Positions 4,060 through 43,281 of a stretch of DNA of 64,000 nt are shown here, in pieces. The stretch's first letter is position 1; each line of letters begins with the position of its first letter. Made by a program: the position numbers and the translations under genes. The stretch comes from Tersicoccus sp. Bi-70 (GTDB taxonomy: Bacteria > Actinomycetota > Actinomycetes > Actinomycetales > Micrococcaceae): NCBI RefSeq assembly GCF_001968825.1, contig NZ_MIEU01000010.1, positions 496,001 through 560,000 of the forward strand, read 5' to 3'. The notes under the pieces were generated by a model that searched no databases, was not told the DNA's origin, and worked only from the letters and a program-made list of their open reading frames with translations.

Positions 4060-4740
4060 ATGGACTTTTCCATCTACGGTCGCAACGTCACGGTGTCCGA
4101 CCGGTACCGCGAGTACGCGGAGGAGAAGATCGCCAAGATCGAACCGTTGGTCGAGAAGAAGCACCGCCTCGAGGCGAAGGTGACGAAGCAGCCCTCCGAG
4201 GTCATCATCGAACTCACCGTGCTCGGTCTGAAGCCCGTGATCCGGGCCGAGGCTGCGTCCGAGGACAAGTTCGCCGCATTCGATGCCGCCGCCAGAAAGC
4301 TGGCCGAGCGTCTGCGCCGGGCCCGCGACCGCAAGAAGGTCCACCACCAGGGCCACCAGCGCCCCACCGCCGTGCACGAGGCCACCGCCTCCCTGCCGGT
4401 CGTCCGCCCGGACACGCCGCTGTACCTGCAGACCGCGGACGACGTCGACGGCCGTGCCGCCGACACCGTGCCGGACCAGCAGAGCGGCGATTCGCCCGTC
4501 ACCATTCGCCGCAAGGTCTTCCCGGCCGCTCGCCTCACCCTGGACGACGCCGTCGACGCCATGGAGATGGTCGGCCACGACTTCTACCTCTTCATCGACG
4601 AGGAGACGAGTACCCCCTCGGTCGTCTACCGGCGCCGTGGCTGGACGTACGGGGTCATCTCGCTCGACGAGGCGTGCGACGAGAACGCCGACGTGCAGGA
4701 GGAGGAGCTGACCTACCGGTCGGCAGGCACGCCCGCCTGA
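4060..4740 (+). CDS. hpf: Ribosome hibernation promoting factor, long form
   Basis: This 226-residue protein is the long HPF/RaiA type that pairs 70S ribosomes into inactive 100S dimers under stress. The N-terminal RaiA domain (about residues 1-100) starts MDFSIYGRNVTVSDRYREY and is followed by a Lys/Arg-rich stretch. A variable linker leads to the dimerising C-terminal domain (about 160-215), containing FYLFIDEET and VVYRRRGWTYGVISL. ATG 4060 is chosen over upstream in-frame starts because GGAG at 4050-4053 is correctly spaced and the RaiA fold begins there. It sits alone between comF and a ycaQ-like gene and is followed by a strong hairpin. Confidence 0.93.
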   Translation: MDFSIYGRNVTVSDRYREYAEEKIAKIEPLVEKKHRLEAKVTKQPSEVIIELTVLGLKPVIRAEAASEDKFAAFDAAARKLAERLRRARDRKKVHHQGHQRPTAVHEATASLPVVRPDTPLYLQTADDVDGRAADTVPDQQSGDSPVTIRRKVFPAARLTLDDAVDAMEMVGHDFYLFIDEETSTPSVVYRRRGWTYGVISLDEACDENADVQEEELTYRSAGTPA

Positions 4741-37128: not shown

Positions 37129-38193
37129 TCAGCGGCTGCCGTGCGCCAGCAGCGCGTCGACGGTGCGCTCGGCGGCGTGGCCGTCGCCGTAGGGCGCGGC
37201 GTCGGTCGGCGCGGGCGCCGGCCGCTCGACGGTCTGCGCGAGAACGTTCAGGTCCGCGCTGACCAGGGCGTTCCAGCCGAGCTCGACCGTCTCGACCCAC
37301 TCGGTCTCCGGGCGGATCGTCGTGCAGGGCACCCGCAGCAGGAAGGCCTCCTTCTGCAGGCCGCCCGAGTCGGTCACCACGCCCGCACTGCGGCGGACGG
37401 CGTCCACGAGGTCCGGGTAGGCCAGCGGCGTCGTTGCGGTGATCGACCCGGCCGAGAGGTCGATGCAGTGCTGGTCGGCCAGCTTCCGCAGCCGGGGGTG
37501 CGCGAGCAGCAGCACCGGCCGACTCAGGCTCGCCAGGTTGTCGACGATCGCGCGGAGCCGGGCGGGGTCGTCCGTGTTGTCCGGGCGGTGGATGGTCGCC
37601 ACGTGGTACTCGCCCTCGACGAGCCCCTCGGGCAGCGGCCGCGGGTCGGCGTCGAGGCGGTCCCGGACGGCGAACAGCACGTCCGTCATCACGTCCCCGA
37701 CGAGCACCGTGCGCTCACCGAGCCCCTCGGAGGTGAGGTGGTCCACCGCGACCTGGGTCGGCGCGAGCAGCAGGTCCGCCGCGTGATCGGTGAGCACCCG
37801 GTTGTGCTCCTCGGGCATCCGCCGGTTGAAGGACCGCAGGCCGGCCTCGAGGTGGGCCACCGGGATGTGGATCTTGACGGCGGCGACAGCAGCGGCGAGC
37901 GTCGAGTTGGTGTCCCCGTAGACGAGCACGATGTCGGGCTGGTGCTTCTCGAACAGGGCCTCGAGGCCGCCGAGCATGGCCCCGGTCTGGGCGCCGTGCT
38001 TGCCGGAGCCGACGGCGAGGTTCTCGTCCGGCTCGGGGATGCCGAGATCCCGGAAGAAGACGTCGCTCATCAGCTCGTCGTAGTGCTGGCCGGTGTGCAC
38101 GATGACGTGCTCGGCCCGGCCCTCCATGGCGCGGGCGATGGGGGCGAGCTTGACGAACTGGGGCCGAGCGCCGACGACGCTGAGGATCTTCAT
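37129..38193 (-). CDS. wecB: UDP-N-acetylhexosamine 2-epimerase (WecB/WbpI type)
   Basis: This 354-residue non-hydrolysing epimerase begins MKILSVVGARPQFVKLAPI, with HTGQHYDELMSDVFF near residue 32, VYGDTNSTLAA near 90 and HLEAGLRSFNRRMPEEHNR near 110. The C-terminal VTDSGGLQKEAF motif is near 275. Such enzymes invert C2 of UDP-GlcNAc; the paralogue WbpI does so on UDP-GlcNAc(3NAc)A. Beside wbpA, wbpD, wbpE and wbpB the WbpI role is attractive, but sequence alone does not separate it from WecB. ATG 38193 with GGAAGGA upstream is preferred over GTG 38211. It is downstream of and co-oriented with the glycosyltransferase gene at 38236. Confidence 0.92.
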   Translation of the reverse strand: MKILSVVGARPQFVKLAPIARAMEGRAEHVIVHTGQHYDELMSDVFFRDLGIPEPDENLAVGSGKHGAQTGAMLGGLEALFEKHQPDIVLVYGDTNSTLAAAVAAVKIHIPVAHLEAGLRSFNRRMPEEHNRVLTDHAADLLLAPTQVAVDHLTSEGLGERTVLVGDVMTDVLFAVRDRLDADPRPLPEGLVEGEYHVATIHRPDNTDDPARLRAIVDNLASLSRPVLLLAHPRLRKLADQHCIDLSAGSITATTPLAYPDLVDAVRRSAGVVTDSGGLQKEAFLLRVPCTTIRPETEWVETVELGWNALVSADLNVLAQTVERPAPAPTDAAPYGDGHAAERTVDALLAHGSR

Positions 38194-38206
38194 GGTTCCT
38201 TCCGGT

Positions 38207-38244
38207 TTCACGCCTGGTACTTCACGCCTGGTACGTCACGCCTG
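38207..38244. repeat. 14-bp tandem repeat carrying duplicated stop codons
   Basis: TTCACGCCTGGTAC occurs at 38207-38220 and 38221-38234, followed by a variant GTCACGCCTG at 38235-38244. The last copy contains the 3' end and TGA of the minus-strand glycosyltransferase, so its final codons and stop have been copied twice into the 42-bp gap before wecB. Confidence 0.9.
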
Positions 38245-39486: not shown

Positions 39487-39492
39487 TAGGCT
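39487..39492 (+). promoter_or_regulatory. -10 element giving a near-leaderless transcript
   Basis: TAGGCT ends eight bases before ATG 39501, and no ribosome site is present between. Initiation is expected within two bases of the start codon. Confidence 0.5.
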
Positions 39493-39500
39493 CGTCTCCC

Positions 39501-40667
39501 ATGCGGATCGCCCTGACCAAGAGCACGCTGCTGGTGCCCCCGACGTACTTCGCCGTGGCGCACGCCGAGCGGATGCGCGACGCGTACGACTGGCGGATGT
39601 TCACCCTCGCCGCCGAGGTCACCGATCCGGGCATGCACGTGCCCGTCACGGAGCTCGTCCCCTTCCACGATCGCCCATTCGCCCAGCGGGAGCGGCTGAT
39701 CCCGCTGTTCATGCCGGCCATGGTGCGCGCGGTCGTCGCGTGGCAGCCCGACGTCGTGCACCAGCACTTCGCCACGTGGTCGGCTCCCGCGGTGCGCGCG
39801 GCCCGCCGGCTCGACGTCCCGCTCGTCACCACCCTGCACGGCGCCGACGTGTTCGCCCGGCTCGGCACCGCGACGAGCGCGATGGCGCGGTGGCACGACC
39901 GCAACGTCGACCTCGTGGCCCGCGCCGGCACGCGGACGCTCGCGGTCAGCCGGTACCTCGCCGACAACGCGGTGCGCGCCGGCTTCGACCCGGCACGGCT
40001 GCAGATCCACTACCAGGGCGTGGACACCGACCTCTTCACCCCGGCACCGGACCGGGCCGAGAACGAGCGCCCGATCGTTCTCTTCACGGGGGCACTGAAC
40101 GAGCAGAAGGGCATCCGCGACGCGGTGGCCGCGTCCATCCGGGTGGCGCGGGACCACGCGCACGACTTCGTCGTCGTCGGGCAGGGACCCCTGCGGGCCG
40201 AGCTGGAGCGGGTCGCGGCCGAGCACCCGCACATCCGGCTGACCGGCCCGACCGACCGCGCCGGGGTGCGGGCATGGATGCAGCGCGCCGACGTGCAGGT
40301 GGTACCGAGCCGGACCATCGACGGGCGCGGCGAGTCCGCCGGGCTGGTCGGGCTCGAGGCGCAGGCGTGCGGCACGCCGGTGGTAGCGACCCGGTGCGGC
40401 GGTGTTCCCGAGATGGTCGATCCGCAGGGCGGTCAGCTGGTGGACGAGGGCGCCGTGGACCAGATCGCGGACGCGATCACCCGGGTCCTGATCGACCCGG
40501 CGGGCGACCGGGACGAGCGGCGCCGCAGCGCCGTCGACTTCGTCCGCCGCGAGCGAAGCCTCGCCCACAGCTGCGAGGAACTGGGGCAGATCTACCGGGA
40601 GGTCACGGCTGCGCCGGCGTGGAGTCCGGCACGGGGGTCCCGGCCCGCGCCGACCGCAGGCGCTTGA
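39501..40667 (+). CDS. GT4-family glycosyltransferase
   Basis: This 388-residue GT-B enzyme contains HQHFATWSAPAVRAAR near residue 90, TLHGADVFARLG near 113, and the donor-side VLFTGALNEQKGIRDAVAA near 193. The UDP-sugar-binding E-x7-E region reads GESAGLVGLEAQACGTPVVAT near 277-297. Upstream in-frame codons exist, but ATG 39501 lies directly after a -10 element and begins the first beta strand MRIALTKSTLL, so a leaderless start is preferred. Its last 65 bp overlap the convergent Wzx-like gene. It probably adds one sugar of the repeating unit; donor unknown. Confidence 0.87.
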   Translation: MRIALTKSTLLVPPTYFAVAHAERMRDAYDWRMFTLAAEVTDPGMHVPVTELVPFHDRPFAQRERLIPLFMPAMVRAVVAWQPDVVHQHFATWSAPAVRAARRLDVPLVTTLHGADVFARLGTATSAMARWHDRNVDLVARAGTRTLAVSRYLADNAVRAGFDPARLQIHYQGVDTDLFTPAPDRAENERPIVLFTGALNEQKGIRDAVAASIRVARDHAHDFVVVGQGPLRAELERVAAEHPHIRLTGPTDRAGVRAWMQRADVQVVPSRTIDGRGESAGLVGLEAQACGTPVVATRCGGVPEMVDPQGGQLVDEGAVDQIADAITRVLIDPAGDRDERRRSAVDFVRRERSLAHSCEELGQIYREVTAAPAWSPARGSRPAPTAGA

Positions 40668-42081
40668 TGTCCCGGACGTTGATCAGCGCCCACACGAGGA
40701 CGAAGACCACAGCCAGCACGACTCCGGTCCACAGCGGCGGCCGGATGGCGGTCGACCAGAGGACGCCGCCGACGATGAGGGCGACGCCCGCCACGAGGCG
40801 GAGCATCATCCCCGCCCACCGCTGACGGTCCTGCCGCCAGCTGACCACGAGGGGGCCGATGGAGGTGAGCGTGGACGCGGTCAGGTAGCCGACCGCCACC
40901 CCGATGACGCCGAGCCCGGGGCCGAGCACCACCCAGAGGATGATCGCGAGCACGAGCCCGCCGGCGGCGACGAAGGAGATGAAGCGGACACCCCGGACAC
41001 CGGTGGCGTTGAGCCGGTTCACGGCGCCCACGGGCAGGGTCGTGAACATGACGGCCAGCAGCAGGACGGGCAGGATGTCCTCGGCGCCGGCGAAGCGCTC
41101 GCCGTAGAGCACGTGCACGACGAGGGGACTGGCCAGGGCAAGGGCCCCGAAGACCGCGAGCATCGACACTGAGAGGCCGCGCGTGACGAGGTCGGTCTGG
41201 CGGCGCAGGGACGCGGTGTCCTGGCGGCCGCCCGCTTCCGCCATCGACGGGAAGAGCACCTGGCTACCGGTGCGCGCCAGCATGGTCGCGGGGGTGGCGA
41301 GGCTCAGGGCGGCGGCGTAGAGTCCCGCATCCTGGGGAGAGCCTGCCAGCTGGGCGCTCACCATGGACAGCTGCAGCAGACCCGTGCTGGAGAGCGTGCC
41401 GAGTACGCCGTACCCGACGAAGCGGCGCATCGACGGAAGCAGGGCGGGATCGACCGGGGTGCTCGACGGCGCCGGCCAGCAGATCACGGCGTAGGCACCG
41501 TAGCCGAGCGCCAGCGGCAGCAACAGGATCGGCTCGGCGTGGAGCAGCAGCACGACGGCGAGCATGACGAGGGCGGCGACGGAGCCGGCGACGTCCCAGA
41601 CGGCGGCCCGCGCGATCTGGCCGGCCCCGTACTGCACGCCGCGGGCGAAGGACCAGCCCGCGTACCCGAGCAACAGGATGCCGGCGCAGATCGCCGTGCT
41701 CAGGTCCAGGTGGAGCACGACGACGGCGCCGAGCACCGTGGCCACGGCGAGCAGCAGCGACGTCGCGATCATGCGCCGGCCCAGGTGGTTGGCCACGGCC
41801 TGGGCCTGGTCGAGGCGACCTTCGCCGCGCAACTGGGCCACGAACCGGGTGGCGGCCTGGCCGGCCGACGTCGGCCACAGCAGGCTCAGGAACAGGGCGA
41901 GCGAGAGGGCCGAGTTGACGCTCGCGAGCGTGGCCGCGCCGAGCACACGACCGATCAGCACGCTGTAGAGGAACCGGGTCAGACCCTGGGAGAGGCTGCC
42001 CATCAGCCCGAACGCCCAGCGCGACGCCATGCTGCGGGCGCTGGACTGGGACACGTCGGTACGACGGAACAGCGAGGGCAT
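40603..42081 (-). CDS. Wzx-like polysaccharide flippase (MOP superfamily)
   Basis: This 492-residue membrane protein has an N-terminal SMASRWAFGLMGSLSQGLTR helix and roughly 12-14 hydrophobic segments, in the pattern of the polysaccharide_synt family. A cytoplasmic loop RTGSQVLFPSMAEAGGRQD near residue 270 and LYGERFAGAEDILPVLLLAVMF near 325 are typical of Wzx/O-antigen flippases. It would move undecaprenyl-linked repeat units across the membrane. ATG 42081 lies six bases after a TACGAT -10 element with no ribosome site, so a leaderless message is likely. It coexists with the ABC exporter at 29980-31638, so two export routes are encoded. Confidence 0.85.
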   Translation of the reverse strand: MPSLFRRTDVSQSSARSMASRWAFGLMGSLSQGLTRFLYSVLIGRVLGAATLASVNSALSLALFLSLLWPTSAGQAATRFVAQLRGEGRLDQAQAVANHLGRRMIATSLLLAVATVLGAVVVLHLDLSTAICAGILLLGYAGWSFARGVQYGAGQIARAAVWDVAGSVAALVMLAVVLLLHAEPILLLPLALGYGAYAVICWPAPSSTPVDPALLPSMRRFVGYGVLGTLSSTGLLQLSMVSAQLAGSPQDAGLYAAALSLATPATMLARTGSQVLFPSMAEAGGRQDTASLRRQTDLVTRGLSVSMLAVFGALALASPLVVHVLYGERFAGAEDILPVLLLAVMFTTLPVGAVNRLNATGVRGVRFISFVAAGGLVLAIILWVVLGPGLGVIGVAVGYLTASTLTSIGPLVVSWRQDRQRWAGMMLRLVAGVALIVGGVLWSTAIRPPLWTGVVLAVVFVLVWALINVRDIKRLRSARAGTPVPDSTPAQP

Positions 42082-42087
42082 CCGCTC

Positions 42088-42093
42088 ATCGTA
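42088..42093 (-). promoter_or_regulatory. -10 element for a leaderless wzx-like transcript
   Basis: TACGAT on the minus strand (42093-42088) is followed by six bases and then ATG 42081, placing +1 on the A of the start codon. Confidence 0.6.
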
Positions 42094-42102
42094 CTGCGGT
42101 CG

Positions 42103-42108
42103 TAGAAT
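42103..42108 (+). promoter_or_regulatory. -10 element for a leaderless GT2 transcript
   Basis: TAGAAT is followed by six bases and then GTG 42115, placing +1 on the G of the start codon. It lies back-to-back with the wzx -10; their inner edges are nine bases apart. Confidence 0.6.
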
Positions 42109-42114
42109 GCGCAG

Positions 42115-43263
42115 GTGCCATTCGAGCGTCACTCCGACACCGGCCGGTGCGCCGAGAAGTCTGCTGAGGACGCTGCCGACGATGCGGCCTCGACGCCCCT
42201 GGTCGACGTCGTCATCGCGGTCCACGACGTCAATCGGCCCGTCGCCCGGGCCATCGCCTCGTGCGCCTCGACCCTGGTGCCCGGGGCGGTGCGCGTCACG
42301 GTCGTGTGTCACGACATCAGTGCCCGTGAGGTGGAGGCGGCCACGGGTATGAGCCCGTCCCCGGCACTGCGCTTCCTCGAGTACCGGGACGGCGTGCGCT
42401 CGCCTGCGGGCCCGAAGAACCATGGCCTGGACGCCGTCGAGGCCACCTTCACGGCGGTGCTCGACTCGGACGACTACCTCGAGCCGGGGGCCATCGACCA
42501 CTGGTACCGGCTGCTGACCGAGCGCTCCGCGGACGTCGTCGTCGCTCCCGTACGGCACCAGAACGGCGGCCTGCTGCCGACGCCGTGGTCCCGGTTCGGC
42601 CGTCGTCACGGCCTGGATCCGGTCAAGGACGGGCTCGCCTACGCGACCGCGCCGCGCGGGATGTGGCGCACCGCGACGGCGCGCGCCGCCGGGTTCCGGT
42701 ACACCGAGGGCCTGCGGACGGGGGAGGACCTCGAACCGGGCCTGCGCCTCGCGTTCTCCGGCGCGAGCACCGAGTTCCCCGCCCGGGGCCCGAAGTACGT
42801 CCTGTGCGACGACGCGGAGGTCCGCGTCACCCACGACGTCATGCCCCTGGCCGAGGAGTTCCTCGCCCCCGAACGGCTGGACCCGGCGTGGCTGGCGTCG
42901 ATCGGGGAACCGGCGCGCCGGGCGATCGCGACGAAACTCACGCGCACCAATCTGCTCGGCGCGATCCGGCGGCGGGGTCCGTCGGGGGCCTGGCCCGACG
43001 AGGACCTGGACGCGGTGCAGACCTTCGCCCGCCGGCTGCACGAGGTGCACCCCTCCGTCGAGCACGGCCTTCCCGCGGCTGATCAGGCGCTCTTCGTCGC
43101 CGCGTGCTCCGCGTCCACGGACCGGGACGCCTTCCTGGCGGCCGTGGCGGCGCGCCACGGGGCCGGTCCGGTCGGCCGTCACCTCACGGCCAACCCCCTG
43201 CGCAGTCTCGGCCGGGAGAGCGCCCTGCGGCACGGCGTGCGGCTCGTCCTCGACCGTCGCTGA
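42115..43263 (+). CDS. GT2-family glycosyltransferase
   Basis: This 382-residue protein has an acidic N-terminal tail of about 28 residues and then a GT-A domain. VDVVIAVHDVNRPVARAIASC opens the first strand near residue 30, NHGLDAVEATFTAVLDSDDYLEPGA near 102-126 contains the SDD metal-binding motif, and GLRTGEDLEPGLRL near 200 holds the acidic catalytic-base region. The C-terminal 140 residues are helical. The start is GTG 42115, which coincides with the expected transcription start and has no ribosome site. Its donor sugar is unknown; position beside the Wzx gene links it to repeat-unit assembly. Confidence 0.82.
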   Translation: MPFERHSDTGRCAEKSAEDAADDAASTPLVDVVIAVHDVNRPVARAIASCASTLVPGAVRVTVVCHDISAREVEAATGMSPSPALRFLEYRDGVRSPAGPKNHGLDAVEATFTAVLDSDDYLEPGAIDHWYRLLTERSADVVVAPVRHQNGGLLPTPWSRFGRRHGLDPVKDGLAYATAPRGMWRTATARAAGFRYTEGLRTGEDLEPGLRLAFSGASTEFPARGPKYVLCDDAEVRVTHDVMPLAEEFLAPERLDPAWLASIGEPARRAIATKLTRTNLLGAIRRRGPSGAWPDEDLDAVQTFARRLHEVHPSVEHGLPAADQALFVAACSASTDRDAFLAAVAARHGAGPVGRHLTANPLRSLGRESALRHGVRLVLDRR

Positions 43264-43275
43264 CCTCCCCTGTGG

Positions 43276-43281
43276 GATACT
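43276..43281 (+). promoter_or_regulatory. -10-like element before the DPM-type gene
   Basis: GATACT ends six bases before GTG 43288, so +1 would be the start codon. No ribosome site is present in the 24-bp gap after the preceding gene. Confidence 0.45.

Follow-up and report, generated by a model that had tools for sequence, protein, structure and literature searches.

In Actinobacteria, the signal for leaderless transcription has been described as a TANNNT element placed some 12 bp ahead of the start codon (PMC3160421). A quarter of the genes of Mycobacterium tuberculosis are reported to be expressed as leaderless mRNAs, from promoters described as possessing no conserved -35 motif and with similar use of ATG and GTG in leaderless and leadered transcripts (PMC3898074), while for Streptomyces lividans leaderless ORFs are put at about 20% of the total, their mRNAs showing a preference for AUG (PMC6742748). 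Closely juxtaposed divergent promoters are presented as a common feature of the M. tuberculosis genome, and in the divergent adjacent pair prpD / Rv1129c both mapped start sites are placed at the start codons (PMC3898074). Divergent transcription out of very short DNA is also reported for the bidirectional promoters of Escherichia coli, which are described as sharing one pseudo-symmetrical -10 element, with start sites mostly 18, also 10 or 23 bp apart (PMC12825309). Among the matches listed in our literature survey of leaderless and divergent promoters, there was no start-site map for Micrococcaceae, Arthrobacter or Tersicoccus.

The window considered here is a stretch of 64,000 nucleotides from Tersicoccus sp. 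Bi-70 (Micrococcaceae; contig NZ_MIEU01000010.1). A preliminary description had located a 33-bp divergent promoter between a flippase and a glycosyltransferase gene, and the letters, spacers, nine-base gap and 33-bp distance that it gave proved exact on direct reading of the sequence (Table 1). On each strand a TANNNT hexamer is followed by six bases and a start codon (TACGAT-N6-ATG 42081 on the minus strand, TAGAAT-N6-GTG 42115 on the plus strand), with the nine bases CTGCGGTCG between the two hexamers; 24 of the 33 bp are taken up by the two elements and their spacers, and the predicted +1 sites lie 34 bp from each other. The arrangement resembles the leaderless promoters described for M. 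tuberculosis and Streptomyces in the position of TANNNT about 12 bases before the start, in ATG or GTG as the 5' end and in the lack of a Shine-Dalgarno sequence, whereas the Tersicoccus sites are known here as sequence predictions. As in prpD / Rv1129c, two adjacent genes diverge; there, however, one gene is a regulator and the start sites were measured (PMC3898074), while neither gene of the Tersicoccus pair is a regulator and its sites are predicted. The likeness to the E. coli bidirectional promoters ends with the short DNA, since two separate -10 elements nine bases apart replace the shared one and the predicted start sites are more widely spaced; under the definition given in that study (PMC12825309), the Tersicoccus stretch is therefore not a bidirectional promoter.

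Table 1. Features of the divergent promoter region and of the genes around it (window coordinates).
Feature	Position	Strand	Basis
492-aa polysaccharide flippase-like protein	40603..42081	-	Pfam PF13440 over residues 208-331
Flippase start codon ATG (CAT on the forward strand), whose A at 42081 would be +1 of a leaderless mRNA	42079..42081	-	sequence; relatives' matches
Six-base spacer, flippase side (CCGCTC on the forward strand)	42082..42087	-	
TACGAT (ATCGTA on the forward strand), predicted flippase -10 element spanning -12 to -7	42088..42093	-	sequence; T. phoenicis TACACT-N6-GTG
Nine bases separating the two -10 elements	42094..42102	.	sequence
TAGAAT, predicted transferase -10 element spanning -12 to -7; the TAG within it doubles as in-frame upstream stop	42103..42108	+	
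Six-base spacer, transferase side (GCGCAG)	42109..42114	+	
Transferase start codon GTG, whose G at 42115 would be +1	42115..42117	+	sequence
382-aa GT2-family glycosyltransferase	42115..43263	+	Pfam PF00535, 23.5 bits vs cut-off 23.3
GATACT, separated by six bases from the start of the next GT2 gene (GTG 43288)	43276..43281	+	same in T. phoenicis

The surrounding genes include a further GT2 gene, a DUF2304 gene and a GT4-type gene, as well as an ORF (37129-38211) that we take to encode UDP-GlcNAc 2-epimerase. For the next GT2 gene, the hexamer, the spacer length and the start codon are identical in the window and in T. phoenicis (loci L032 and L064), and GATACT, which departs from TANNNT at its first base, probably marks a third leaderless promoter. 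A TAGGCT hexamer (39487-39503 region) is separated by eight bases from ATG 39501, where a glycosyltransferase-like gene starts; in T. phoenicis the distance is seven bases, and judging from this spacing the gene is probably leaderless or carries a leader of one or two bases. The 3' ends of the flippase gene and of this converging glycosyltransferase-like ORF overlap by 65 bp (40603-40667); the corresponding converging pair in T. phoenicis (L032) overlaps as well, by 25 bp.

The frequency of TANNNT before start codons was determined in 464 kb of contig C10, out of the 3.48-Mb genome, where our codon-usage script called 405 genes, 404 starts of which were counted; starts were picked by coding score, a gene was dropped if its overlap with a better one exceeded 60 bp, and the glycosyltransferase-like gene at 39501 (65-bp overlap with the flippase) is missing from these calls. 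The first base of TANNNT falls at -12 in 37 of the 404 starts and at -13 in a further 13 (50/404 at either position), against a background of 1.1 per position, or 0.275% for any one given position (P ~2e-43 for -12). The false fraction for a TANNNT site at -12 is accordingly estimated at 3%, such that about 97% of these sites should be real leaderless signals. Of the 53 starts that have the motif between -11 and -14, 31 are ATG and 22 are GTG, and no -35 element was apparent by eye in the base frequencies of the 50 aligned TANNNT starts. A Shine-Dalgarno peak, mostly at -9 to -13, is present in the same sample, and the genome seems to use both modes of initiation. Two further family genomes, each sampled over 400 kb, show the -12 peak as well, with TANNNT there in 19 of 308 called genes (background 1.8) and in 23 of 345 (background 1.4). 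Judged by these counts, leaderless TANNNT promoters would be frequent in the Tersicoccus genome and would also occur in both of the other family members sampled.

Within the locus itself, a search of both strands for TANNNT with its left end in 41700-42500 returned only the two sites described above, each at -12 of its start, and a scan for sigma-70 -35/-10 pairs over 41500-42600 returned no promoter-like pair and no terminator. The lack of further TANNNT sites nearby, together with the -12 peak and for the flippase also with its counterpart in T. phoenicis, lends good support to the earlier prediction of leaderless transcription for both genes, and very probably the two sugar-polymer genes start transcription exactly at their start codons. 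We consider it highly likely that the stretch comprises two independent actinobacterial leaderless promoters set back to back in 33 bp. Each of them, read by a presumed sigma factor, would consist of a -10 element, TANNNT, occupying -12 to -7, with no evident -35 element; the first transcribed base would be the start codon's purine (A 42081 on the minus strand, G 42115 on the plus strand), and the ribosome would initiate on the 5'-terminal AUG or GUG without a Shine-Dalgarno sequence. One polymerase at a time would occupy the region, which at the ordinary promoter strength that we presume would hardly matter. Counted against this explanation are the AUG preference in S. lividans (PMC6742748), as opposed to the GTG start of the transferase, the empty sigma-70 scan, the non-coding score of the first transferase codons and the six flippase orthologs from outside the genus in which the element is missing (both described below).

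At the flippase start, the mean codon score rises from -0.18 over the 80 codons upstream of the start to 0.44 over the 80 downstream. Whole-genome matches begin at query residue 1 in T. phoenicis and in G029 and at residue 4 in G011, and the flippases of all three have a GTG at, or at most one residue from, the position of ATG 42081; since the ortholog alignment used starts that we had chosen, the shared first residue is not independent evidence, whereas the match ranges are. In the transferase frame, GTG 42115 is the only ATG, GTG or TTG between the TAG at 42103 and the GT2 domain; ahead of the domain, CTG 42199 alone could serve as another start. The first 28 codons score as non-coding (-0.04 per codon, vs 0.43 for the next 100), so that the assignment of the start to GTG 42115 follows from the lack of alternatives. 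The preliminary description had also stated that neither side carries a Shine-Dalgarno sequence, and pairing of the 20 bases before the start with the anti-Shine-Dalgarno sequence is indeed weak, at -3.1 kcal/mol for GTG 42115 and -2.3 for ATG 42081, compared with a median of -5.8 for the 354 starts without TANNNT at -12 or -13 (-3.95 for the 50 starts with it); this measure separates the two groups only partly, values of -5 or below being reached by 42% of the 50 starts with the motif and by 62% of the 354.

These observations bear on a reading in which the flippase alone is leaderless, TAGAAT occurs by accident and the transferase has a different start, such as CTG 42199, or a different promoter. 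The non-coding score of the first 28 codons would fit such a reading, as would the matches in the 14 transferase homolog loci (L002-L015), which begin at query residues 10-29, and the lack of a transferase match in either of the other Tersicoccus genomes. It is nevertheless unlikely, given the in-frame TAG at 42103 with no other ATG, GTG or TTG ahead of the domain, and the position of TAGAAT exactly at -12 in a stretch otherwise devoid of TANNNT.

In T. phoenicis (G002; L064) the flippase is preceded by TACACT-N6-GTG, and there the gene faces the next GT2 gene across 128 bp, with no transferase in between; no match to the flippase was obtained in the other congener (G001). The upstream comparison covered the seven close flippase orthologs (59-69% identity; the 22 further matches in the family are more distant, at 33-40% identity), and among these seven the exact element occurs in one, that of T. 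phoenicis. TANNNT at -12 of the candidate starts is missing in all six close orthologs from outside the genus, and the flippase of one of them, G307, is preceded by GAGAGT-N6-GTG, in which only the A and T of the element are kept. For the 14 transferase homolog loci, a heuristic gave candidate starts in six and none in eight, with TANNNT at -12 in one (L015). Conservation of the divergent unit as a whole was rejected, as neither of the two other Tersicoccus genomes has a transferase match and the sequences upstream of the six close flippase orthologs beyond the genus are different. Transferase homologs in three other genomes (L006, L007 and L008, from G025, G052 and G020) lie together in tight divergent pairs, with 16-84 bp between the matches.

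The spacing of the two promoters raises the question of mutual interference. A distance of 34 bp between the predicted +1 sites would fall well inside the footprint of one polymerase. It is sterically plausible, judging from general footprint sizes, that two polymerases should not fit at once and would exclude each other. The preliminary description had derived from this exclusion a coupling of flippase and transferase expression. Such a coupling does not follow, since exclusion would set the two genes in competition, and nothing in the data shows that the pair links their expression: the transferase is absent from the syntenic locus of T. phoenicis, so that the only congener with a flippase does not share the link, and pairs in which both genes carry the motif are about as numerous as independent sides would give (3 of the 66 divergent pairs of the 464-kb sample, vs 3.2 expected). 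An excess of double-leaderless pairs was likewise not seen in the two other family genomes, where none of 52 and none of 58 divergent pairs had the motif on both sides. In E. coli, all five bidirectional promoters examined are described as too weakly active at the basal level for polymerases to compete, although strong activation in one direction can repress the other, and the authors state that separate divergent promoters are unaffected by direct polymerase clashes (PMC12825309).

These results also weigh on the possibility of a regulatory switch, in which the two genes would be made interdependent by polymerases excluding one another or by a factor that covers the 33 bp between them. The close packing of the predicted +1 sites and of the -10 elements speaks for it, as does the gap itself, the smallest among the 66 divergent pairs of the sample. 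The gap is not unique, though: in the two other family genomes sampled, divergent gaps of 17 and 27 bp (G003) and of 32 bp (G032) occur, none of them with the motif on both sides. A switch appears improbable, as T. phoenicis retains the flippase promoter without the transferase, double-leaderless pairs do not exceed the independence rate, and little competition is reported at basal activity for the five E. coli promoters (PMC12825309). An operator over the shared stretch was also considered and rejected, because no inverted or direct repeat of at least eight bases was found in 42000-42200. Elsewhere on contig C10 (~240231; near 4231 of locus L076), a perfect 26-bp palindrome centred on TGTACGATCGTACA lies in the 44-bp gap between two divergent called genes, and from its sequence looks like the operator of a regulator.

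We regard as decidedly unlikely the more specific proposal that the stretch is a near-minimal double-leaderless promoter at which polymerase occupancy would toggle between flippase and glycosyltransferase without any regulator. Finally, mere chance, with TANNNT falling twice at -12 without function, is very improbable: the motif is loose, but with the two sides taken as independent the expected frequency is 7.6e-6 for this named pair and 5e-4 for any of the 66 divergent pairs, and the false fraction per -12 site is as low as estimated above.

Two independent leaderless promoters placed back to back thus remain the preferred reading. Double-leaderless divergent pairs are already known from M. 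tuberculosis (PMC3898074), and the Tersicoccus pair is ordinary in kind and notable for its tightness; by itself it does not point to new biology. Two predicted leaderless promoters within 33 bp would nonetheless offer a compact test piece for polymerase interference, with back-to-back -10 elements and a 34-bp start spacing. If the toggle were true, one step of surface-polymer synthesis would be made at the expense of the other.
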